Positions 40,271-52,033 of a stretch of 64,000 nucleotides of DNA are shown piece after piece. Position numbers and translations under genes: made by a program. Under the pieces are notes generated by a model. It had not been told where the DNA came from, did no database searches, and saw only the letters and a program-made list of their open reading frames with translations. Each line of letters opens with the position of its first letter. The first letter of the stretch is position 1. The DNA is from Vineibacter terrae (GTDB lineage: Bacteria; Pseudomonadota; Alphaproteobacteria; Reyranellales; Reyranellaceae): positions 1 through 64,000 of the forward strand of contig NZ_VDUZ01000046.1 of the NCBI RefSeq assembly GCF_008039615.1, written 5' to 3'.

Positions 40271-40485
40271 GGCAGGGTTATCGGATATGGCACTATCGGC
40301 CGAACCGTCAGAAGACGAACCACAGAGACACAGCGCAGCCTTTGGCCGCAACCAAATGGCGGAGGAGTGCTTCATGGTTCGACAAGCTCACCGTGAAGCG
40401 CTTCCTCCGCCCTTTGGGTTGCGGCCAAAGGCTGCGCTGTGTCTCTGTGGTCAGCTTTCATGGCGCCATATGCGATCGCCCTGCC
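40271..40485. repeat. composite inverted-repeat element R2, copy 1
   Basis: A 215-bp element with related ends: GGCAGGGTTATCGGATATGG at 40271 and, inverted, GGCAGGGCGATCGCATATGG ending at 40485. Inside is a perfect 34-bp inverted repeat (40320-40353 against 40417-40450, starting CCACAGAGACACAGCGCAGC). The core has a shorter pair CTTCA/TGAAG around TTCGACAAGCTCACC. It looks like a non-coding miniature transposable element. A second copy lies at 47405-47735. Confidence 0.8.
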
Positions 40486-40845: not shown

Positions 40846-42522
40846 TCATTTCTCGTTCGGGTCCGCCCAGCGCCAGTCCTCGACCCACAGGGTGGACACG
40901 TTGAGATGGCCGGTGGGGCGCACGCCCTTGAGCGCCTTGGGCAGGACGAAGACGTCGGAGCGGAAGTAGAGCGGCAGCACCGGCAGATCCTCGGTGTAGA
41001 TGCGCTGCATCTCGCCGAACAGCGCCTTGCGCCTGGCGACGTCGAGCTCGACCTCCATGGCATCGAGCAGGCGATCCATCTCGGGGTTCTTGTAGCCGCC
41101 GCTGTTCTGGCCGCTCCAGTTGTTGGCCTGGCTGGGGATCTCCTGCGAATGCAGGGTGGTGCGCGGCACGCTTTGCGGCGCCGACACCCAGGCATACATC
41201 GCCAGGCCGCTATAGGCGCGCTTGTTGACCGTGTCGCCGAAGAAGACGCGCGGCGGCTCGACCTTGAGCCGCACGTCGATGCCGATCTGCTTCCACTGGC
41301 TCTGCAGCACCTGCTGGATCAGCTCGCGGTTGCGGTTGCCGGCCGTGGTGGCCAATTCGATCGACAGGCGCTCGCCCTTGGCGTTCTGGCGCACGCCGCC
41401 GCGGATCTCGGCGAAGCCGGCCGCGTCGAGCAGCTGGCGCGCGGCGGCGGCGTCATAGGCGTAGTGCCGGGCGCCGGGGCTGTACATCGGGTCCAGCGGG
41501 TTGACGTTGCTGTGCGCCACCGGCTGCTTGCCCTCGAACAGCCGCGCCGAGATCGCCTCGCGGTCGATGCCCAGCATCAGGGCGTGGCGGACGCGCCGGT
41601 CGGCCAGCAGCGGGTTGTCCAGGTTGATGTCGATATGCTCGTAGACCAGGCCGGGCTTGTAGACGACGTCGAAGCGGTCCTTGTGCCGCTTCTCGAAGGA
41701 CAGCGCCTGATCCAGCGACAGCCCCAGCTCGCCGATGACGTAGTCGATCGACCCCGAGAGCAGGTTGGCTTCCAGGGCCGCGGTGTTCTCGATGATGCGG
41801 AACACGATGCGCCGGAAGTAGGGCGCCTTGCCGGACCAGGCCGGGTTGCGCTCGAGCTCGACCGAGGCGCCGGGCACGGTCTTGACGATGCGATAGGGGC
41901 CGAACCACAGCGCCGCGTTGGTGGTGTCGGTCTCGAACCTGGACCTGTTGCGGTACTCGGCGGGATTGGCCTCGAACACCGGGCGCTCGACATGCGCCGG
42001 CAGCAGGCGGAAATCCCCCATGGCATTGTAGTCGAACGTCACCCGGTCGGTATGGAAGGTGAAGGTGCGCTCGTCCTTGATGTCGAGCTTGAGGATGCGG
42101 CGGTAGCCCTCGGCGGCGGCGACCCCGGACTGCGGGTGCTTGCCGACCTCCAGGGTGAAGGCGACGTCGCGGGTGGAGACCGGCGTGCCGTCGCCCCATT
42201 TCAGGTCGGGCCGCAGCGTGTAGGTGACGGCGATGCCCTTCTTGCCCGGCGCGTATTCCTCGATCACGGCGCCGCCGTTCTCGATGGTCGGCAGCTCGGT
42301 GCACAGCAGGCACACGAGCTTCCAGTCCGGATCCCAGGCCGTGACCGGCCGCAAGGTCATGCCCTCGACCAGCGACTTGGCCAGCATCGAGCCGATGTTG
42401 GGATTGAACGACGACGGGTACTGCGTCATGCCGATGACGAGCTCGTCCTTGGCCGCGGCAGGGCGGACGAGAGCGACGGCGCCGGCCAGCAGCAGAACGG
42501 CAAGACGGAGGATGATGGTCAC
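40846..42522 (-). CDS. ABC transporter substrate-binding protein, family 5 (peptide/opine)
   Basis: Periplasmic receptor of a Dpp/Opp/App-type importer, 558 residues. A signal peptide covers about 1-24 (MTIILRLAVLLLAGAVALVR, then PAAAK). Family motifs include GMTQYPSSFNPNIG near 32, YTLRPDLKWGDGTPVSTRDVAFTLE near 115, RNPAWSGKAPYFRRI and DNPLLADRRVRHALMLGIDREAIS. The C-terminus is ordinary. It stands alone on the minus strand, flanked by repeats; the DppBC-type permeases at 33.8-35.7 kb could be its partners. The ligand is unknown. Confidence 0.92.
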   Translation of the reverse strand: MTIILRLAVLLLAGAVALVRPAAAKDELVIGMTQYPSSFNPNIGSMLAKSLVEGMTLRPVTAWDPDWKLVCLLCTELPTIENGGAVIEEYAPGKKGIAVTYTLRPDLKWGDGTPVSTRDVAFTLEVGKHPQSGVAAAEGYRRILKLDIKDERTFTFHTDRVTFDYNAMGDFRLLPAHVERPVFEANPAEYRNRSRFETDTTNAALWFGPYRIVKTVPGASVELERNPAWSGKAPYFRRIVFRIIENTAALEANLLSGSIDYVIGELGLSLDQALSFEKRHKDRFDVVYKPGLVYEHIDINLDNPLLADRRVRHALMLGIDREAISARLFEGKQPVAHSNVNPLDPMYSPGARHYAYDAAAARQLLDAAGFAEIRGGVRQNAKGERLSIELATTAGNRNRELIQQVLQSQWKQIGIDVRLKVEPPRVFFGDTVNKRAYSGLAMYAWVSAPQSVPRTTLHSQEIPSQANNWSGQNSGGYKNPEMDRLLDAMEVELDVARRKALFGEMQRIYTEDLPVLPLYFRSDVFVLPKALKGVRPTGHLNVSTLWVEDWRWADPNEK

Positions 42523-42773: not shown

Positions 42774-43634
42774 CTACCGGCCGTTGGTGGCGATGGCCGG
42801 CGTCGGCCGGCTGGCGCTGTGGCCCGGGTTGCGTCCGCCATGCGCCGCCGACCAGCTGTCGGGGGCGTTGAGGAAGGCGCGCGTCTCGGTCAGGCCGCGC
42901 TCGTCGAAAAGCTTGTAGCGCTCGGCGGCGTCAAGCACGTCCCACCATGTTGCAAGGGCATGCAGCTTCACGCCCATCGACGCCAGCACGTCGACGCTCT
43001 GCTGGAAGATCCCGTAGTGGAAGATCACGAACGTGTCGGTGACCTTGGCATCGGCCTTGCGCAGCGCATCGATGAACATCACCTTGCTGCCGCCGTCGGT
43101 CGCCAGATCCTCGACCAGGAGCACGCGGTCGCCGGCCTTCAGCTCGCCTTCGATCTGAGCCATGCGCCCGAAGCCCTTGGGCTGCTTGCGCACATAGATC
43201 ATCGGCTTCTTCGCCGTGGCGGCGATGAAGGCGGCAAAAGGGATGCCGGCCGTCTCGCCGCCGGCAACGACGTCGATCTTGGACCAGCCGATCGCATTGC
43301 CGATCACCTTGTGGGCATGCGCCATGATGCGGGCGCGGGCGTCCGGGAAGGAGATGATCTTGCGGCAGTCGATATAGACCGGGCTGGCCCGGCCCGAGGT
43401 GAAGATGAACGGGTTGTCCGGCCGGCAATGGACCGCCTTGATGTCCAGCAGCAGCCGCGCGGTGTCGCGGGCGGCAGCGGTCGTGCCCGCCTTGCCGTTG
43501 ACCGCCGAACGCGGTGCCGACGGCGTTGCCGCCACGCGACGCACGGCCTTGGCCGCCGGCTTGCCCACCCGGGGCCGCGACGACGGTTTCCTGGCCGAAC
43601 CTGCCTTGCTCTTTGTCTTCTGCTTCGACGCCAT
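42774..43634 (-). CDS. pyrE: orotate phosphoribosyltransferase with a basic N-terminal extension
   Basis: Pyrimidine biosynthesis enzyme: orotate plus PRPP gives OMP. The catalytic core (about 60-265) has FIFTSGRASPVYIDCRKII, VVAGGETAGIPFAAFIA, YVRKQPKGFGRMAQIEGELKAG and the PRPP loop VLLVEDLATDGGSK. At 286 residues it exceeds the usual 210-230, with an N-terminal extension of about 55 residues very rich in Lys, Arg, Ala and Pro (MASKQKTKSKAGSARKPSSR), like a histone H1 tail, and about 20 extra C-terminal residues. A start at an internal codon would remove the tail, but I see no better ATG before residue 60. It is leftward and monocistronic. Confidence 0.9.
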   Translation of the reverse strand: MASKQKTKSKAGSARKPSSRPRVGKPAAKAVRRVAATPSAPRSAVNGKAGTTAAARDTARLLLDIKAVHCRPDNPFIFTSGRASPVYIDCRKIISFPDARARIMAHAHKVIGNAIGWSKIDVVAGGETAGIPFAAFIAATAKKPMIYVRKQPKGFGRMAQIEGELKAGDRVLLVEDLATDGGSKVMFIDALRKADAKVTDTFVIFHYGIFQQSVDVLASMGVKLHALATWWDVLDAAERYKLFDERGLTETRAFLNAPDSWSAAHGGRNPGHSASRPTPAIATNGR

Positions 43635-44155: not shown

Positions 44156-44818
44156 ATGTGGACGGTCGTTAGTGATTTCGACGGCACGATCGTGCCGTTC
44201 GACGTCACGGATCGGTTGCTGGATCAGTTCGCGGATCCCGCCTGGCAGTTCGTCGAGGAAGCGTGGAAGCACGGACGGATCAGCGCCCGGCGGTGCATGA
44301 CGCTCCAGGTCGCGATGATCCGTGCGACGCAGGCCGAGCTCGACGCCTTCCTCGATGCGATCGACATCGACCCGCACTTCCCCGCGTTCGCGTCCGATTG
44401 CCGCCATGCCGGCGTGCCCCTGGCGGTGGTCAGCGACGGCCTGGACTACGTCATCCACAGGGTCCTCGGGCGCCACCGCATGGACGGGCTCACGGTTTTT
44501 GCCAACCACCTGGTTGCCGGCGGCGACGGGACCTACGCCATGGCGGCGCCGCATGCGATCGACGCCTGCATGGCCGGCAGCGGCGTGTGCAAATGCGATC
44601 GGGCGGCCGCGCTGGCAGGGCGGAACGACCGCACGCTCCTGATCGGCAATGGCCGTTCCGATTTCTGCCCCGGCGAGTCGGCCGATCTCCTCTTCGCCCG
44701 CGGCGCGCTGCTGGGCAAAGCCCGTGAGCAGGGCTGGCCGGCCGTCGACGTTCCCGATTTTGCCGCGGCCCGCCTGGCGTTCGCGCGGCTGATCGGCCGG
44801 CTGGCCGAGGTGGCCTGA
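44156..44818 (+). CDS. MtnX-like HAD-IB phosphatase
   Basis: Haloacid-dehalogenase phosphatase of subclass IB, 220 residues. The nucleophile motif is VVSDFDGTIVPFDVTD (D7, D9), motif II PLAVVSDGLDYVI, and the acidic motif LLIGNGRSDFCPGESADLLFA. This pattern is like MtnX (2-hydroxy-3-keto-5-methylthiopentenyl-1-phosphate phosphatase) and SerB. No other methionine-salvage gene is nearby, so a different phosphate ester is likely. It is the first gene of a tight rightward operon (27 bp to the next gene). AGCAAGGAG lies before the ATG. Confidence 0.85.
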   Translation: MWTVVSDFDGTIVPFDVTDRLLDQFADPAWQFVEEAWKHGRISARRCMTLQVAMIRATQAELDAFLDAIDIDPHFPAFASDCRHAGVPLAVVSDGLDYVIHRVLGRHRMDGLTVFANHLVAGGDGTYAMAAPHAIDACMAGSGVCKCDRAAALAGRNDRTLLIGNGRSDFCPGESADLLFARGALLGKAREQGWPAVDVPDFAAARLAFARLIGRLAEVA

Positions 44819-44845
44819 CGCAACCGCGCCGGCGTGGAGACAGCG

Positions 44846-45760
44846 ATGCGCGTGCGGGCCATTGACCTCGATGGCAGCCTGGCGCTGCAGCCGGCGATCG
44901 TGGCGGCGGCGCGGCGCGACGGCGGCTGGATCGACGCCGCCGACCTCGGGTCGCGGCTGCGGCTGTGGACCGATGCCGCAACGATGCGGGACTTCGGCCA
45001 GCGGCTCCATGATGCGCCGGCCGGCGGCATGCCGGGCGCGGCCGTGACGTTCCTGGGCTCGGGCGATTTCCATCACCTGACCGTGCCGCTGATGGCGGCA
45101 GCGGCGCAGCCGTTCACCCTCATCCATTTCGACAACCATCCGGACTGGGTGCGCTTCGCGCCGCGATGGCATTGCGGATCATGGGTGAACCGGGCGCTGG
45201 AGCTGCCGCATGTCGCACGCGTCGTGACCATCGGCCCGTGCAGCGAGGACCTGGCCTGGCCGCAGCTCAAGGGCGCCAACCTGGCGGCGCTGAGTGCCGG
45301 CCGGCTGGAGCTCTATCCCTGGCAGCATGCGCCGTCGCGCATCCTGGGCGCCTTCGGCGACGGCCCGGGGCACCGGGTCGCGGGCGGCCGGATCCAATGG
45401 CGCTGCGTCGGCGACGACTGGAACGCCTTCGTCGACGAGCTGGCGGCGCGGATCCCCACCGAGGCGATCTGGATCACCATCGACAAGGACGTCCTGCGGC
45501 CACAGGACGCCACCACCAACTGGGACCAGGGCGCGATGCCGCTGTCGGCGCTGACGCGGGCGGTCGAGACGCTGGCCGGCCATCGGCGCGTGCTGGGCGT
45601 CGACGTTTGCGGCGAGTACGCGCCGCCGCGGCACCGCAACCTGCGCAAGCGCTTTGAAGCCTGGACCGATCAGCCGCGGGACGCCGAGCCCCGGGAGGTC
45701 GCCGTGAACGCCCGCACCAATGACGTCCTGCTGGCGCTGCTGACGGCGGTGCCGTCATGA
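44846..45760 (+). CDS. arginase/agmatinase-fold protein (ureohydrolase superfamily)
   Basis: Metal-dependent hydrolase of the arginase superfamily, 304 residues, divergent from true arginases. The metal-site motifs survive in altered form: SGDFHHL (H76/H77) in place of GGDHS, HFDNHPDW with D96, H98 and D100 in place of DAHxD, and ITIDKDVL (D213, D215) in place of the SxDxDxxDP motif. A guanidine, amidine or amide substrate is therefore plausible but cannot be named. ATG at 44846 has GGAGA upstream and is preferred to a GTG at 44834. It ends overlapping the next gene by ATGA. Confidence 0.8.
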   Translation: MRVRAIDLDGSLALQPAIVAAARRDGGWIDAADLGSRLRLWTDAATMRDFGQRLHDAPAGGMPGAAVTFLGSGDFHHLTVPLMAAAAQPFTLIHFDNHPDWVRFAPRWHCGSWVNRALELPHVARVVTIGPCSEDLAWPQLKGANLAALSAGRLELYPWQHAPSRILGAFGDGPGHRVAGGRIQWRCVGDDWNAFVDELAARIPTEAIWITIDKDVLRPQDATTNWDQGAMPLSALTRAVETLAGHRRVLGVDVCGEYAPPRHRNLRKRFEAWTDQPRDAEPREVAVNARTNDVLLALLTAVPS

Positions 45761-46128
45761 GCGCGCTGGCGATCTGCCTGTTCAGCGCCACGGTGGTGCT
45801 GGATGTGCTCGGGCAGCTGCTGTTCAAGACCGGCCTGCTGCGGCTGCAGGCGCCGACGGCGCAGGGATGGCGCTTCCTCGGCGCCATCGCGCTGTCGCCC
45901 GCGATCGTGGGCGGGGTCCTGGCCTACGGGCTGGAGGCGGTGCTGTGGCTGGCCGCGCTGGAGCATGCGCCGCTCAGCCTGCTCTTTCCGCTGGCCAGCC
46001 TCAGCTACTGCGGCGTCGTGGTCGCCGGCTGGCTGGTGCTGGGGGAGGCCGTCAGCCCGCGCCGGTGGCTGGGGACGGCCACGATCACGCTGGGCGTCGT
46101 CATCGTGACCTGGGGAGGCGTTTCGTGA
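45757..46128 (+). CDS. small EamA/EmrE-like transporter (first)
   Basis: A four-span protein of 123 residues resembling SMR/ArnE-type half transporters: spans at about 2-22, 37-57, 63-85 and 97-119, with GEAVSPRRWLGTATITLGVV near the end, typical of EamA proteins. ArnE/ArnF pairs flip lipid-linked aminoarabinose, so this and the second small EamA protein encoded at 46991 may act as a heterodimer. It overlaps its neighbours by 4 bp on both sides, so it is translationally coupled. Confidence 0.8.
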   Translation: MSALAICLFSATVVLDVLGQLLFKTGLLRLQAPTAQGWRFLGAIALSPAIVGGVLAYGLEAVLWLAALEHAPLSLLFPLASLSYCGVVVAGWLVLGEAVSPRRWLGTATITLGVVIVTWGGVS

Positions 46129-46994
46129 CGGGGCATGCAAGGCTCGGCGCGACCGAGGGCATCCACCTGCAGGGCGGCCCTGACGCCGTGCTGCTGATCC
46201 ATGGCCTGACGGGCACGCCCAAGGAGATGCGGTTCGTGGCGCGGCGGCTCAATGCCAGCGGCTTCACCGTGTCGGTGCCGCGGCTGCGCGGCCATTGCGG
46301 CACCGAGGCGGAGCTGATCCGCACCGGATGGCCCGACTGGTATGGCGGCGTCGAGGAAGCGCTGGTGAGCCTGCATGGCGTCTCGCGCCGGGTGTTCGTG
46401 GGCGGCCTGTCGATGGGCGCGCTGCTGTCGCTGCGCCTGGCCCACGAATGCCGCGACCTCGTTTGCGGCATCGCGCTCTACTCGCCGACGCTGTTCTACG
46501 ACGGCTGGAGCATCCCGCGGCTGCACTTCCTGCTGCCCCTCGTCCTCAAGACGCCGTTCGGGCGCCGCTACCGGTTCGTGGAGTCGTTTCCGTTCGGCAT
46601 CAAGGATGCGCGCCTGCGCGACATCGTGGTGGCGCGCATGGCGAGCGGCGATGCCGACGCCGCCGGCTTCGCGGCGACGCCGGGCCCCAGCCTGGCCGAG
46701 CTGCGCCGCCTGATCAGCCACGTCAAGCGCGACCTGCCGCGCATCACGACACCGGCGCTGATCATGCAGGCGCGGGACGATGACATGACGTCGCCGCGCA
46801 ATGCGGCCTATCTCGCCAGGCGCCTGGCGGGCCCGGTGCGGCAGGTGCTGCTCGACGACTGCTATCACATGATCACGATCGACAAGCAGCGCGAGGAGGT
46901 GGCGCGGCAGACGGCCAGCTTCTTCAGCGCGTTGCCGTTGCCCGCAGCCGCGGCATCGCCGATCGCGGGCATGGCGCTGGGGAGCACGGCGTGA
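46125..46994 (+). CDS. alpha/beta hydrolase (carboxylesterase or monoacylglycerol-lipase-like)
   Basis: Serine hydrolase of 289 residues. The oxyanion region is LLIHGLTGTPKEMRFVARRL, as in Est30-type carboxylesterases. The nucleophile is in GGLSMGALLSLRLAH, the acid in LIMQARDDDMTSPRNA, and the catalytic His in LDDCYHMITIDKQREEV, the family pattern. The start is GTG at 46125, overlapping the upstream stop, with GGGAGG close before it; frames opening earlier overlay the EamA gene. Lying between two small transporters, it probably acts on a lipid or an acylated compound handled by them. No signal peptide, so cytoplasmic. Confidence 0.88.
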   Translation: MTGHARLGATEGIHLQGGPDAVLLIHGLTGTPKEMRFVARRLNASGFTVSVPRLRGHCGTEAELIRTGWPDWYGGVEEALVSLHGVSRRVFVGGLSMGALLSLRLAHECRDLVCGIALYSPTLFYDGWSIPRLHFLLPLVLKTPFGRRYRFVESFPFGIKDARLRDIVVARMASGDADAAGFAATPGPSLAELRRLISHVKRDLPRITTPALIMQARDDDMTSPRNAAYLARRLAGPVRQVLLDDCYHMITIDKQREEVARQTASFFSALPLPAAAASPIAGMALGSTA

Positions 46995-47401
46995 GCGACA
47001 TGCCCGTCGCGCGCGCCGGCATCAACCCGTGGCTGGGCTGGGGGTTGCTGGTCGCGGCCGAGACCGCCTCGCAGCTGCTCCTCAAGATCGGCAGCGATCA
47101 TCTCGCGGGCGCCGACGGCATCGGCGCGTGGGCGCTGGCGGTATTGTCATCGCCGGCGGCGCTGGCCGGGTTCGTCTGCTACTTCCTGTCGTTCCTGGCC
47201 TGGATCACCTTGCTGCGCGACAGCGACCTCAGCCGGGCGTACCCGATGACGGCCATGATGTACGTGACGGTGCCGCTGTCGTCGATCGTCCTGCTGGGAG
47301 AAAGCATCGATCTCACGCGCTGGCTGGGCGTGGCGGTGATCTGCACCGGCGTCGTGCTGGTCGCCGGCGACGAGGACGACGACGCAGGGCGCGCGCCATG
47401 A
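46991..47401 (+). CDS. small EamA/EmrE-like transporter (second)
   Basis: A 136-residue four-span protein (spans at about 13-33, 46-70, 83-105, 110-128) of the EamA/SMR type with GESIDLTRWLGVAVICTGVV near the C-terminus, the same motif as in the first small transporter, followed by a short acidic tail (GDEDDDAGRAP). The start is GTG at 46991, overlapping the hydrolase stop. The two halves probably pair as in ArnE/ArnF. An R2-type repeat begins right after its stop. Confidence 0.8.
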   Translation: MSDMPVARAGINPWLGWGLLVAAETASQLLLKIGSDHLAGADGIGAWALAVLSSPAALAGFVCYFLSFLAWITLLRDSDLSRAYPMTAMMYVTVPLSSIVLLGESIDLTRWLGVAVICTGVVLVAGDEDDDAGRAP

Positions 47402-47404
47402 CCA

Positions 47405-47735
47405 GGCAGGGCTATCGCATATGGCATTGTCGGCCGAACCGTCAGAAGACAAACCACGGAGGCACAGAGACACAGCGCAGCCTTGGCCGCAAACCCAAAG
47501 GACGGAGGAAGCGCTTCATGGTGAGCACAGGTGAATGCGAAGCATTCACCTGTGCTCACCATGAAGGCTACTCAAATCACCGCAGCTTGCGAAGACTCTT
47601 GAGGTCAGTAGTACAGAGATCACACAAAGGAAGACGCCATCGCGCGCCGAAGGCGCGCAACCCTTCGTTCTCTGTGTCGCCTCTGTGCCTCTGTGTCTCT
47701 GTGGTTTGCCTTCATGGCGCCATATGCGGTTGCCC
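47405..47735. repeat. composite inverted-repeat element R2, copy 2
   Basis: A 331-bp element with ends related to copy 1 (GGCAGGGCTATCGCATATGG on the left; GGCGCCATATGCGGTTGCC on the right). It shares the GGCCGAACCGTCAGAAGAC and CACAGAGACACAGCGCAGCC stretches with copy 1. Inside is a perfect 25-bp inverted repeat with a 3-base loop (47514-47566). It sits between the small EamA gene and the acyltransferase gene, ending 4 bases before the latter's ATG, so it interrupts what looks like an operon. Confidence 0.8.
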
Positions 47736-47738
47736 GAC

Positions 47739-48905
47739 ATGACCAGGGTCGACTTCGCCACCTCGGTCGCGGCGATCGGGGCCGCGACGTGGCGCGCCTG
47801 CCTGCCCGACGAGATCGAGGGCTACGCCTATCATCGCGCGGTGGAGGCGGCCGGGCTGGAGGGCTTCGAGCTGCTCTGGGCCGTGGTCCGCGACGGCGAA
47901 CGCGTGCTCGGCTTCGCGCCCGCGTTCGTGACGTCGTACCGCCTCGATGCCACGCTGCAGGGGCCGTGGAAGCGCATCACCCAGGCCGTGGCGCGGATCA
48001 TGCCGTCGCTGCTGCGCCTGCGCATGACCTGCCTGGGATCGCCCGCGGCCGAGACCTGCGCCGTCGGCCTGGCGCCGCAGCTCGATGCCGCCGGCCGGCG
48101 CCAGGTGCTGAGCCTGCTGCTGCAGGCGCTGCGGCAATTGTCGCGCGACCGCCGCGCCGGCCTGATCGCCATCAAGGACCTGCCCGAGATCAGCACCGAG
48201 CTGTCGGAAGCGGCCGGCCGGGCCGGATTCCAGCGGCTGCCGGGCCTGCCGATGGCCAGCCTGGAGCTGGCCTATCCCAGCTTCGAGGCCTATCTCGCGT
48301 CGCTCAGCCCGGCCACGCGCAAGGACATGCGGCGCAAGCTGAAGGCCGCCGGCGCCATCGTCGTGGAGCGCCGCACGTCGGTCGACGACGTGCTGCCGCG
48401 CATGGTCGAGCTCTATGCCGCCACGCGGGCCCGCAGCGACCTGCAGTTCGAGACCCTGCCGCCGGCCTATTTCACGGGCGTGCTGTCGGGAGCGGGCGAG
48501 GGGGCGAGCTGCTTCCTCTACTGGCACGGCCCGGAGCTGCTGGCCTTCAATCTGGTGCTGCACGACGAGAAGCGGCTGGTCGACAAGTTCTTCTGCATGA
48601 ACGCCGAGCAGGGACGGCGCTTCAACCTGTACTTCCTGAGCTGGATGACCAATGTGCGCTTCTGCCTGGAGCACGGCATCAAGCTGTTCGTGAGCGGCCA
48701 GGCGGCCTACGGGCCGAAGCTGCGGCTGGGCAGCAAGCTGAACCCGAACTGGCTGTTCTTCCGCCACCGCAACCGGCTCGTCCACGCGGCGCTGCGCGTC
48801 GCCGCCGCGTTCCTGCGCGCCGATCGCCACGACCCGGTCCTGTCGACGCTCGCCAGGGACCGCGATGCCGGGCCAGGCGAGTGGCGCAGGCTGCAGCACC
48901 AGTAG
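47739..48905 (+). CDS. FemAB/GNAT-like acyltransferase (DUF482 or BioF2-like)
   Basis: A 388-residue protein with two GNAT-like halves, resembling the peptidogalycan/FemAB-type DUF482 and BioF2-like acetyltransferases. Recognisable parts are GFELLWAVVRDGERVLGFAPAF near the N-terminus, FEAYLASLSPATRKDMRRKLKAA near 190, the FLYWHGPELLAFNLVLHDEKRLVDKF strand pair near 265, and YFLSWMTNVRFCLEHGIKLFVSGQAAYGPKLRLG near 300. Such proteins transfer aminoacyl or acyl groups to envelope molecules. ATG at 47739 is used; 47724 is an alternative inside the repeat. Same strand as the EamA-hydrolase operon, from which an R2 element separates it. Confidence 0.75.
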   Translation: MTRVDFATSVAAIGAATWRACLPDEIEGYAYHRAVEAAGLEGFELLWAVVRDGERVLGFAPAFVTSYRLDATLQGPWKRITQAVARIMPSLLRLRMTCLGSPAAETCAVGLAPQLDAAGRRQVLSLLLQALRQLSRDRRAGLIAIKDLPEISTELSEAAGRAGFQRLPGLPMASLELAYPSFEAYLASLSPATRKDMRRKLKAAGAIVVERRTSVDDVLPRMVELYAATRARSDLQFETLPPAYFTGVLSGAGEGASCFLYWHGPELLAFNLVLHDEKRLVDKFFCMNAEQGRRFNLYFLSWMTNVRFCLEHGIKLFVSGQAAYGPKLRLGSKLNPNWLFFRHRNRLVHAALRVAAAFLRADRHDPVLSTLARDRDAGPGEWRRLQHQ

Positions 48906-49025: not shown

Positions 49026-50246
49026 CTACGGCGGCAGCACGTATTTCTGCTTGATCACGGGCACGCGGCCGCTGCCGTCGTAGCAGACGATCAGGGCCTC
49101 GTGCGCCATGTTGCCCTTGCCGTCGGAAAAGTACTCCGTCGCCAAGCCGCGCCAGCGGGCCTGCGCCAGCGCGGCGCGCACCGTCTCGCCGGTCACGGCA
49201 TCGGCGCCCTTGGCCTTGACGATATCCTCGACCAGCAGCCCCAGCATGCGCACGGCGTCGTACTGGGCGGCGGCGAAGGCATCGGGATCGGCGCCGTAGT
49301 CGCGGCGATAGTCGGCGACGAAGCGTTGCATGTCGGCGCTGTCGGTCGCCGCCGCCGGCATCGCCGCCGTCTCGGCGCAGACGCCCTTCAGCTCGGCCGG
49401 CTCCAGCAGGGCCGCCGTGGCGGGTTGCGCCATCGCCGAGCCGGCCACGATGGGCAGCGACGGCGCTGATGTGCGCGCCTGGCGGATCGCCAGCGCCGTC
49501 GACTGCGAATGCAGGTGCAGCACCAGCACGTCGGCCTGGGCGGCCTGGGCGCGCGCGATCATGGGCGCGAAATCGTTCACCGTCGTGGCCACGCCTTCCT
49601 CGAGCACCGGCTTGAGGCCGAGCTCGGTGAGCGTGCGCGCCAGCTGCTCGCGGCCCGACTGGCCGTAGGCGGTGGTCTGGTAGATCACCGCTGGCCGGCG
49701 GGCGCCGGTCTTGTCGGCGACGTACCGGGCATGCGCCACCTTCACCGCGCTGTCGCTGGGGAAGAAGCGGAAGAACCAGGGGCTGCCCATCTCGGACAGG
49801 CGCGCGGTGCCCGACACGGCCAGCACCGGCACCTTGGCCTCCGCCGCCAGCGGCAGCAGCGCCAGCATCTGGGTGCCCAGGATCGGGCCGATCGCGGCGA
49901 TCGGCGGGCGCACGCCATCGCGGGTCGAGGAGTCGCGGAAGGCGCGCTGCCAGGTGGTCGCCGCGCCCTCCGGGCTGGTGCCGGTGTCGATGAGGTCGAC
50001 CACGAAGCGCACGCCGACATCGCGCACCGCCAGCAGGGCGCCGTCGCGCTGGCTCTTGCCCTCCAGCGCCGCGAAGCCGGTCAGCGGCACCAGCAGCGGC
50101 AGCCGGAACGCCGGCTGCGATTGCGCGCGCACGATCGCCGGCAGGGCGAGGCCGGCGCCGAGCGCGGCGGCGCCGAGCCCGGCAAGGCGGCGGCGGGATA
50201 TGCCATCAACCCTCGCCCCGCGCAGCGGGGAGAGGGAGGGGCCCAT
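49026..50246 (-). CDS. LivK-like ABC branched-chain amino acid binding protein
   Basis: Periplasmic binding protein type I (Leu/Ile/Val family). It has a Tat-like signal (ISRRRLAGLGAAALGAGLAL, then PAIVRAQ), a receptor domain opening LPLLVPLTGFAALEGKSQRDGALLA, and YGADPDAFAAAQYDAVRMLGLLVED near the C-terminus. The start is a problem: no start codon lies directly before ISRRRLAG, and the nearest in-frame ATG (50246; product 406 residues) is inside an inverted repeat, adding MGPSLSPLRGARVDG. The repeat may have supplied or displaced the start. No permease or ATPase gene adjoins it. The ligand is unknown. Confidence 0.82.
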   Translation of the reverse strand: MGPSLSPLRGARVDGISRRRLAGLGAAALGAGLALPAIVRAQSQPAFRLPLLVPLTGFAALEGKSQRDGALLAVRDVGVRFVVDLIDTGTSPEGAATTWQRAFRDSSTRDGVRPPIAAIGPILGTQMLALLPLAAEAKVPVLAVSGTARLSEMGSPWFFRFFPSDSAVKVAHARYVADKTGARRPAVIYQTTAYGQSGREQLARTLTELGLKPVLEEGVATTVNDFAPMIARAQAAQADVLVLHLHSQSTALAIRQARTSAPSLPIVAGSAMAQPATAALLEPAELKGVCAETAAMPAAATDSADMQRFVADYRRDYGADPDAFAAAQYDAVRMLGLLVEDIVKAKGADAVTGETVRAALAQARWRGLATEYFSDGKGNMAHEALIVCYDGSGRVPVIKQKYVLPP

Positions 50247-50277
50247 TGCGCGCAGCGCAATGGGAGGGTGAGGGGTA
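50209..50277. repeat. long inverted repeat R4, left arm
   Basis: About 70 bp reading CCCTCGCCCCGCGCAGCGGG, then GAGAGGGAGGGGCCCATTGC and GAGGGTGAGGGGTA. It is nearly identical, in inverse orientation, to 50405-50476. The arm contains a small palindrome CATTGCGCGCAGCGCAATG. It overlaps the 5' end of the LivK-like gene. Confidence 0.9.
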
Positions 50278-50404
50278 CGAGTGGTCAAACCGCAGCACCG
50301 CCTGATGAATCTGTTCGGAAGGCCGATGGAAAGCTGGATCACCATACAGCAAGCGCTGCAGCGCGATCGAGTCTGCGGCCATGAGAACGGTATTCGGCCG
50401 TTCT

Positions 50405-50476
50405 TACCCCTCACCCTCCCATTGCGCTGCGCGCAATGGGCCCCTCCCTCTCCCCGCTCTCGCGGGGCGAGGGGTG
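50405..50476. repeat. long inverted repeat R4, right arm
   Basis: Inverse copy of 50209-50277, with TACCCCTCACCCTCCCATTG at its left end and CGCGGGGCGAGGGG at its right. 127 bp of ordinary-looking DNA lie between the arms. It ends right beside the stop codon of the gamma-glutamyltransferase-like gene. Confidence 0.9.
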
Positions 50477-52033
50477 TCACACCGCGGCGCCGCCGGCCCA
50501 GGGGGACATGATCTCGTTCATGCCGGTGACGGTGCCGGTGGCCGGGTCGCGGCGGATGCAGCTCGGGTTGGCGAAGTTCAGGGGATAGACGACGTTCGGC
50601 ACCTCCTCGATCGGGTGCCGGGCGGCGATCGCGCGCCTGATGTCGGCGGGCAGGTCCCAGCTCACGCGGATCGGGCCGGTGCCCGACACGTCGATGCGCG
50701 GCAGGTGGAAGGCGGTCTCGAGGTCAAGCCCGCGGTCAACCTGCATCATGGTGAGCTGCGTGATGGCCGGCACGATGCGCCGTCCGCCGGACGCGCCGAT
50801 GGCGAACCAGCCTTCGCCGCCGCGCGACACCACCGTTGCGCAGATGTTGCACAACGGCCGCTTGCCTGGCGCCAGCGAGTTGGGGCGGCCGGGCTCCGGA
50901 TCGAACCACATGATGCCGTTGTTCATCAGGATGCCGGTCTGCGGCAGCATCACGCGCGAGCCGAACAGCGACAGCAGCGTCTGGGTCAGCGCCACCATGT
51001 TGCCTTCGGCGTCGACGGCATTGAAGTGCGTCGTGCAGGAGGGCGTGTGGGCATCGCCCATGGTGCGCAGACGCTCCTCGTAGGCGACGTGCAGGGCCTC
51101 GGCGACGGCGACGAAGGCGTCGGCATCGGGTGGCCCGTTGCCGACGGTGCGCTCGCCGATCAGGCCGAAGGCGCGCTTCATCGTCGGGCCCGCGGTCAGG
51201 TAGGGCACGGTGTGGATCACGGCGCCGTTGCGCTCGAACGACACCGGGTCGACGACACGGGCATGGTAGCCGGCAAGGTCGTCGCGGCCGATGGGCGAGC
51301 CGCCGGCGTTGAGGTCGGCGATGATCCTGCGCGCGATCTCGCCTTCATAGTAGTCGCGCGGGCCGGCGTCGCTGAGCCGCTTCAGCGTCCGGGCGAGCTG
51401 CCCCAGCCGGATGCGCGGCGGCGCGCCGTCCCAGCCGACGACCGGCGGGAAGCCGTTGGGCAGGTAGGTGGCGCGCGAGGTCTCGAACTCGGCCAGCTGG
51501 GCGGCGCCCGAGGCGATCATCAGGGTGGCGTACCAGTCGCACAGCATGCCGCGCTCGGCGAGATCGATGGCCGGCGCCATCACCTGCGGCCAGGACCAGG
51601 TGCCGAAGCGCTGCAGGGCGGTGGCCATGCCGTCGACCTGGCCGGGCACGGCGACGGAGTGATAGCCCTTGATGTTGCGGTCCTCGACCACCGGCGGCCA
51701 GCCGAACAGGTCACCGGCCGCCTGGCCGCCGGTCAAGGCGTAGGTCTTCAGGTCGAGCCCGCGCGCAGCGATGGGGCCGTAGTCGACGACATAGGCACGC
51801 CGCTCCTTGGCGACCCACACCACCATGTAGCCGATGCCGCCGATGCCGCTCATCCACGGCTCGACGCAGCCGATCGCCATGGCCGTGGTCACGGCGGCGT
51901 CGATGGCGTTGCCGCCCTGCGCCAGGGTGCGGGCGCCGACCTCGGCGGCCAGCGTGTTCTGGGCCACGACCGCGCCGCGCCCGTGGACCGCCTTCTTGGT
52001 GACCTGCTGGCGGCGACTGAAATTCTCGCTCAT
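50477..52033 (-). CDS. gamma-glutamyltransferase family protein
   Basis: N-terminal-nucleophile hydrolase of the GGT/YwrD type, 518 residues. It has HGRGAVVAQNTLAAEVGARTLAQGGNAIDAAVTTAMA at the N-terminus and CTTHFNAVDAEGNMVALTQ, where Thr334 should become the nucleophile after autocleavage, then GSRVMLPQTGILMNNGIMWF. The C-terminus (MNEIMSPWAGGAAV) is complete and ends at the R4 repeat. There is no clear signal peptide, unlike exported GGTs, so a cytoplasmic amidase or acylase is possible. The LivK-like gene follows on the same strand; uptake plus hydrolysis of gamma-glutamyl or acyl amides is conceivable. Confidence 0.9.
   Translation of the reverse strand: MSENFSRRQQVTKKAVHGRGAVVAQNTLAAEVGARTLAQGGNAIDAAVTTAMAIGCVEPWMSGIGGIGYMVVWVAKERRAYVVDYGPIAARGLDLKTYALTGGQAAGDLFGWPPVVEDRNIKGYHSVAVPGQVDGMATALQRFGTWSWPQVMAPAIDLAERGMLCDWYATLMIASGAAQLAEFETSRATYLPNGFPPVVGWDGAPPRIRLGQLARTLKRLSDAGPRDYYEGEIARRIIADLNAGGSPIGRDDLAGYHARVVDPVSFERNGAVIHTVPYLTAGPTMKRAFGLIGERTVGNGPPDADAFVAVAEALHVAYEERLRTMGDAHTPSCTTHFNAVDAEGNMVALTQTLLSLFGSRVMLPQTGILMNNGIMWFDPEPGRPNSLAPGKRPLCNICATVVSRGGEGWFAIGASGGRRIVPAITQLTMMQVDRGLDLETAFHLPRIDVSGTGPIRVSWDLPADIRRAIAARHPIEEVPNVVYPLNFANPSCIRRDPATGTVTGMNEIMSPWAGGAAV

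Follow-up and report, generated by a model that had tools for sequence, protein, structure and literature searches.

A conserved gene module of Vineibacter terrae with an arginase-fold enzyme, twin SMR-type transporters and a tandem-GNAT transferase, possibly serving a cationic envelope amine lipid

Several described bacterial systems resemble, in part, a gene cluster of Vineibacter terrae located at positions 44156-48905 (+ strand) of a 64,000-nucleotide stretch of contig NZ_VDUZ01000046.1, the whole of which is called the window here. These are the Arn pathway (arnBCADTEF), which places 4-amino-4-deoxy-L-arabinose (L-Ara4N) on lipid A, the ornithine-lipid pathways (OlsB/OlsA, OlsF, OlsI), the aminoacyl-phosphatidylglycerol synthase/flippase MprF together with FemX, the EmrE-type exporters of the SMR family, and the MipA/ParRS polymyxin response of Pseudomonas aeruginosa. 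The cluster encodes a phosphatase (HAD), an arginase-fold protein (ARG), two small EamA/SMR transporter subunits (EA1 and EA2) on either side of a lipase-like hydrolase (HYD), and a tandem-GNAT transferase (GNT); related clusters in other genomes add a class III aminotransferase (AT3). We put at about one half the probability that most of a conserved module lies in the window, one that is under sensor control and that makes and transports a cationic envelope amine lipid. The proposed pathway is built from known protein families, and its outline function is like that of several known envelope systems. Its make-up appears undescribed within the open-access literature, where no description was found by literal matching of terms (other names being possible); an earlier model-made reading of the letters of the stretch (hereafter the sequence-only reading) knew of none either.

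With Arn, the module has in common twin small EamA/SMR subunits that likely form a heterodimer, an aminotransferase (and in some lineages a DegT aminotransferase as well) and two-component regulation, but it is without a glycosyltransferase or UDP-sugar enzyme among its recurring genes, has arginase-fold, lipase-like and tandem-GNAT proteins in place of ArnC, ArnD and ArnT, and carries an acidic residue in its transporters. The likeness to the ornithine-lipid pathways lies in a GNAT-fold candidate N-acyltransferase, an alpha/beta-fold candidate O-acyltransferase and a link to an acyl carrier protein (ACP), whereas GNT is a tandem GNAT, and HYD reaches 21.5 bits against an NCBIfam cut-off of 385 for the ornithine-lipid O-acyltransferase OlsI, with which it is not to be identified. 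We know of no part played by aminotransferase, phosphatase or arginase-fold genes in these pathways. MprF and FemX share with GNT the tandem-GNAT fold (Z 17.9-21.4), and with the module a lipid or cell-wall amine chemistry; GNT is however only 9-18% identical to them and has no fused flippase domain, the SMR pair of the module being separate. The EmrE-type exporters show the same acidic residue in the first transmembrane helix, and EmrE is matched by the EA2 family profile at 1.2e-06, but here two unlike subunits, nearest to ArnE/ArnF among NCBIfam models, are encoded together within a biosynthesis cluster (in 61 of 61 long loci, as defined below). Finally, MipA lies near a two-component system in most long loci, as in the MipA/ParRS response, unlike which the module has matches to a sigma-54-type regulator in 60 of the 61, and MipA is not beside the window genes.

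All six open reading frames were found on the + strand. HAD (44156..44818, 220 residues) is an MtnX-like HAD-IB phosphatase, separated by 15 bp from ARG (44834..45760, 308 residues), a ureohydrolase-type protein matching PF00491 at 35 bits (cut-off 22). EA1 (45757..46128, 123 residues), HYD (46125..46994, 289 residues, a monoacylglycerol-lipase-like alpha/beta hydrolase with a family match to Hydrolase_4) and EA2 (46991..47401, 136 residues) follow, with an overlap of 4 bp at each of the ARG/EA1, EA1/HYD and HYD/EA2 junctions. GNT (47739..48905, 388 residues) has a frame that opens at 47685, its start being placed at 47739 by homology and an ATG, and barely passes the FemAB_like Pfam model PF04339 (27.2 vs 27 bits). 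The six genes, their three overlaps and the families guessed for them by the sequence-only reading (HAD phosphatase, arginase fold, twin EamA, lipase-like hydrolase, FemAB/GNAT) are thus borne out by the junctions measured and by the family models. Its view that all of the genes overlap or nearly so holds from HAD through EA2, but fails for EA2 and GNT, which are 337 bp apart following the insertion of a repeat.

This dispersed repeat (47405..47735) has 95 full or partial matches in its own genome, the in-place copy included, and its centre folds as a long hairpin (47501-47590, -55.8 kcal/mol). Both genus-mates that have the cluster (L015, L016) show a 4-bp overlap of EA2 with GNT, so the repeat has split the operon and cut off its last gene, GNT, from the rest. 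The same repeat family is also found at 40271-40481 of the window, and Rfam gave no match anywhere in the window at gathering thresholds.

The evidence that the genes belong together comes from related loci, collected by scanning one genome per species and keeping the best 80 of 525 relatives, with gene order read by BLAST (E <= 1e-6) for a core of seven genes (HAD, AT3, ARG, EA1, EA2, HYD and GNT). All seven are present in every one of the 61 loci that reach 20 kb (the long loci), a count that includes as AT3 a different enzyme in two of them (L070, L090) and that is not made of independent cases, since 54 are named Pseudomonas, the others being Bosea (3), Labrys (2), Magnetospirillum and Reyranella. 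The 19 shorter loci stand outside this count; eight of them (L016, L039, L046, L052, L072, L079, L084, L092) have the seven genes, and most of the incomplete ones end at contig ends. Linkage is accompanied by co-occurrence: ARG, AT3 (the latter at E <= 1e-100) and GNT (at E <= 1e-15) were each detected in 3 of 101 relatives, and these are the same three genomes, the samples having been drawn alike for the three proteins (the listed genomes are identical). That the products work together, as the sequence-only reading had been sure of, is strongly supported by both results. The neighbourhood check it had proposed came out in its favour, the set being conserved across genomes, although gene order differs between lineages, several orders keeping the same genes. 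In Pseudomonas, for example, the set is divided into two gene groups flanking a reversed MipA gene; two Pseudomonas loci (L035, L055) have two GNT genes, of which one sits between the EA1 and EA2 genes.

The module is also found on plasmids. Searching these with ARG (tblastn) returned 49 records, from Rhizobium, Roseomonas, Agrobacterium, Bartonella, Aureimonas, Azospirillum and others, and the eight loci retrieved from them all carry the seven genes, four of these eight having supplied search seeds; six annotated plasmid neighbourhoods show the six gene kinds of the window together with a class III aminotransferase and a two-component system. Five Bartonella records, one Xanthomonas and one Phocaeicola are among the ARG matches, the weakest of which may be ordinary ureohydrolases. 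ARG has a patchy distribution: 11 of 299 Pseudomonadota have it at E <= 1e-30 (four close), as do 34 of 149 genomes (28 close) in the genus of G380, taken as Pseudomonas because its gene order matches, as well as 12 of 150 and 81 of 117 genomes of two families, and 1 of 229 genomes, at about one per genus, in the class of G307, where the module is sparse outside one family. An ARG relative 54% identical (L030:10004-10870) has no recognised partner gene across 13 kb. A second set of 27 loci, made of seven weak ARG matches of the Pseudomonadota sample and 20 hand-picked stretches from two families, shows GNT and ARG in 27, EA2 in 19, EA1 in 18, HYD in 18, AT3 in 15 and HAD in 13, in stretches of 17-18 kb (one of 10.8 kb) beyond which genes are missed.

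Where, then, is the seventh gene in this organism? AT3 stands between HAD and ARG in the two genus-mates with the cluster, at the place of the 15-bp interval of the window, which has no AT3. Its absence from the organism is ruled out, as an AT3 gene 78-80% identical to those of L015-L017 is found on another contig of the same genome (C38), the next match by E-value having 30% identity with the L016 query and up to 39% in partial pieces. On C38 it is accompanied by another HAD phosphatase, a histidine kinase (sensor) and a sigma-54 response regulator, on account of which the putative pathway is spread over two loci in this genome, the window and C38. The six genes taken as the full set by the sequence-only reading are therefore real but incomplete, AT3 and the two-component regulators being elsewhere. 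The C38 HAD, with GDGRSD as its motif IV, is 48% identical to the window HAD, compared with 80% and 75% for the genus-mate HADs. A C38 AT3 moved from the operon is not favoured: the L015 and L016 proteins are 90% identical to each other and 78 and 79% to the C38 protein, and a tree joins them (100/99) without the C38 copy, whose finer placing is weak (86/78). Tree and identities taken together suggest that the C38 locus has a separate history of its own. Directly downstream of this AT3-kinase-regulator locus lies a copy of the dispersed repeat (G000:C38:84666-84982). Queried with the L016 and L005 proteins, AT3 matches class III aminotransferases at the family level; none of the 25 models listed per query reaches its curated cut-off, and no specific reaction is assigned to it for this reason. 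In Labrys, Roseomonas and Aureimonas loci (L070, L090, L004, L007), AT3 is replaced by a glutamate-1-semialdehyde-aminomutase (GSA)-like class III enzyme, which in Labrys is 25% identical to the C38 AT3 and in Roseomonas scores 403.9 bits with a guanitoxin aminotransferase model (cut-off 525).

HAD meets broad subfamily models only (TIGR01489, 95.7 vs 81.55 bits; TIGR01488, 64.5 vs 45); its family profile has the MtnX-type structure 2fea as nearest solved relative (2.7e-34), yet it is far below the equivalog cut-offs for the MtnX phosphatase of methionine salvage (63.0 vs 303.2 and 73.1 vs 292 bits), with which it is not identified. It retains the DFDGT and SDG motifs, and motif IV reads GNGRSD (Asn165). 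For ARG, the model predicted at a pLDDT of 90.7 has ureohydrolases as its 50 listed fold matches (Z 20.3-22.5), and H80, H81, D100, H102, D104, D217 and D219, which from arginase motifs we take to be the metal ligands, are invariant across 18 rows; the predicted alpha/beta fold and these candidate binuclear-metal ligands place it in the ureohydrolase superfamily. An agmatinase of agmatine or arginine breakdown is rejected (16.5 vs 174.3 and 21.7 vs 302 bits with NCBIfam models). HYD has monoacylglycerol lipases as nearest solved relatives (a thermostable monoacylglycerol lipase at 9.9e-50), and its Ser-Asp-His set (S96, D219/D220, H248) is invariant across 18 rows. The GNT model (pLDDT 90.8) shows a tandem-GNAT fold across most of its length, closest to FemX (Z 21.4), the streptothricin peptide synthase Sbb17 (21.3), FemA (21.1) and domains of MprF (17.9-19.7); Z reaches 18.9 for further tandem GNATs and is about 17 for N-myristoyltransferases. 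The nearest solved relatives of GNT include enzymes acting on streptothrisamine and in the clavulanate pathway.

EA1 and EA2 were likened to ArnE/ArnF by the sequence-only reading, and a distant likeness by profile does stand, as ArnF and ArnE are the best NCBIfam matches of both. Scores are nevertheless below both cut-offs (99 for ArnF, 92 for ArnE), with 43.9 and 41.0 bits for EA1 and 53.8 and 34.8 bits for EA2, and the proteins have an acidic residue at the column of EmrE Glu14, where E. coli ArnE has Ser and ArnF Ala, so that a true ArnE/ArnF flippase is rejected. Aligned with EmrE, ArnE and ArnF of E. coli, EA1 has this residue as Asp16 and EA2 as Glu24, and Asp or Glu occupies the column in 18 of 18 EA1 rows and 17 of 17 EA2 rows of the family alignments, and in 16 of 16 EA1 and EA2 rows of the joint alignment. 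Both subunits have the acidic residue that EmrE carries in its first transmembrane helix. Against solved structures, the EA1 family profile gave nothing significant (best E 0.19). In a review, the central glutamates of proton-coupled SMRs are said to bind protons, and lipid SMRs often to have Asn at the EmrE Glu14 position, to be the sole SMR subtype moving non-cationic substrates, and possibly to lack proton coupling (PMC9574504). From the Asp or Glu of EA1 and EA2, in place of the Asn frequent in lipid SMRs, we infer that they should move a cationic substrate with coupling to protons.

Accessory genes add a lipid side and a possible signal. Of the 61 long loci, 60 have matches to a histidine kinase and a sigma-54 regulator, 56 have MipA and 17 a desaturase; kinases and regulators being large families, some of these matches may be unrelated neighbours. 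In the second set, an ACP and a ketosynthase are present in 11 of 27 loci and a DegT/DnrJ aminotransferase in 16 of 27, the ketosynthase keeping its Cys-His-His, the ACP its Ser and the DegT protein its Lys, presumably the functional residues of each. A desaturase and a cyclopropane synthase lie inside the Agrobacterium fabrum and Phyllobacterium clusters, the former of which is followed by an EptA-type transferase and DgkA, and UppP adjoins the Roseomonas cluster. According to one study, polymyxins are bound by the MipA of P. aeruginosa, which acts together with ParRS, and most mipA genes adjoin a two-component system (PMC10936184), because of which cationic antimicrobial stress would be a natural guess for the signal.

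A route can be proposed from these families. HAD would release phosphate from a small precursor, AT3 (on C38 here) would add an amino group, and ARG, as a putative binuclear-metal enzyme, would hydrolyse a guanidino, amidine or amide C-N bond to give a free amine, to which GNT would join either an acyl group, supplied by the dedicated ACP in modules that include it, or an aminoacyl one. HYD would add or trim an ester acyl chain, the EA1/EA2 heterodimer would move the cationic product outward, probably proton-coupled via its acidic residues, and envelope stress would turn the module on through the histidine kinase and its sigma-54 regulator, often together with MipA of the outer membrane; the substrates and products, the order of the steps, the coupling and the signal are all to be read in this conditional sense. 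The lipid side is backed by the recurrence of ACP/ketosynthase, desaturase and cyclopropane synthase with the module, and the cation side by the Asp or Glu that all aligned EA1 and EA2 proteins have at the EmrE Glu14 column. An envelope amine or modified lipid that is made and flipped, as the sequence-only reading had suggested, is still the best reading given these genes, MipA and the acidic residue, but its further step, attachment, is not borne out.

Several points weigh against such a lipid module. Action on a lipid is unproven for every core enzyme, and a soluble metabolite would be a fitting substrate for HAD, AT3 and ARG; the lipid-type genes are accessory and not universal; and the FemX-type fold predicted for GNT is common to aminoacyl-tRNA-, acetyl-CoA- and acyl-CoA-dependent enzymes. 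The motif IV position of HAD is Asn in the window only and Asp in the 16 other members of a 17-row alignment, and the window HAD may be losing its use, given this Asn and the second HAD elsewhere in the genome. Some loci have only pieces: L030 (13 kb) shows ARG alone, L017 (15 kb) is without EA2, and L141, L144, L146, L147 and L155, all of the second set, show GNT and ARG without transporters, HYD, AT3 or HAD (17 kb). Lastly, the sole MipA found in the genome of the window is on contig C30, and BLAST with the seed proteins shows no module gene or two-component pair in the surrounding 17 kb.

Could the product be soluble instead? A module making a small cationic metabolite (a diamine, an N-acylated polyamine or a small antibiotic-like amide), exported by the SMR pair with no lipid involved, would agree with the EmrE-like acidic residue of both subunits, with the small-molecule enzymes of the HAD, AT3 and ARG families, and with the streptothrisamine and clavulanate relatives of GNT. 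It is harder to reconcile with the lipase-like HYD of all 61 long loci, with the recurring ACP/ketosynthase, desaturase and cyclopropane synthase, or with the lipid-flippase models (ArnF, ArnE) that EA1 and EA2 match best, and we consider it fairly unlikely.

An Arn-like scheme appears improbable; in it, an undecaprenyl-linked carrier would receive an amino group, which the EamA pair would then flip and which would end up on lipid A or a different surface polymer. MipA and the two-component regulators, the DegT/DnrJ aminotransferase of the second set, the UppP and EptA-type neighbours and the proximity of the EamA pair to the ArnF/ArnE models speak for it, but the pair stays far under the cut-offs (at most 53.8 vs 92-99 bits), its acidic residue departs from the Ser and Ala of ArnE and ArnF, and no ArnC/ArnT-type gene is among the recurring genes, the rest of the genomes not having been searched for one. 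Likewise, no ArnC-, ArnT- or ArnA-type gene is annotated inside the six annotated plasmid clusters, again without a genome-wide search. Upstream of the cluster in L008 lie two glycosyltransferases of another kind.

An aminoacyl-tRNA-dependent GNT, attaching amino acids to a lipid as MprF does while the other genes make or recycle the acceptor, would fit its top fold matches (FemX/FemA, Sbb17/Sba18 and MprF soluble domains, Z 17.9-21.4), but other tandem GNATs and N-myristoyltransferases come close behind, and a dedicated ACP and ketosynthase stand beside GNT in some loci. The fold is indecisive between aminoacyl-tRNA and acyl-CoA or acyl-ACP donors, and all the evidence considered, this reading too is improbable. 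That the genes are unrelated neighbours from separate known pathways, as the two-group arrangement in Pseudomonas or the pieces seen in some genomes of two families (f92, f68) could hint, is scarcely credible, being already contradicted by linkage in 61 of 61 long loci, occurrence in the same 3 of 101 genomes and one set kept through several gene orders.

Around the module, the flanks are largely collinear with a genus-mate genome (G002), and the neighbouring - strand genes (50477-52033, 49026-50480, 40846-42522, 42774-43634) encode a gamma-glutamyltranspeptidase family protein, two ABC-type substrate-binding proteins and an orotate phosphoribosyltransferase.

Descriptions of Pseudomonadota strains list 'unidentified aminolipids'. 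A bolder form of the lipid reading, which we offer tentatively and regard as somewhat unlikely as a whole, is that the module represents an undescribed and widely scattered cationic aminolipid pathway, with a proton-coupled heterodimeric SMR flippase that would differ from both ArnE/F and drug pumps, a pathway switched on when envelope stress is sensed through MipA and the kinase, and the source of some of these aminolipids, this last link being a guess. If the lipid reading in its plainer form is right, a whole lipid or amine-conjugate pathway would have been overlooked in Pseudomonas, Bosea, Labrys, Rhodanobacteraceae, Agrobacterium, Rhizobium, Roseomonas and Azospirillum, in several cases on plasmids, and the key residue of the flippase would predict a transport mechanism unlike that of ArnE/F. 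The link with MipA and two-component systems suggests, for its part, a role in withstanding cationic antimicrobial compounds.

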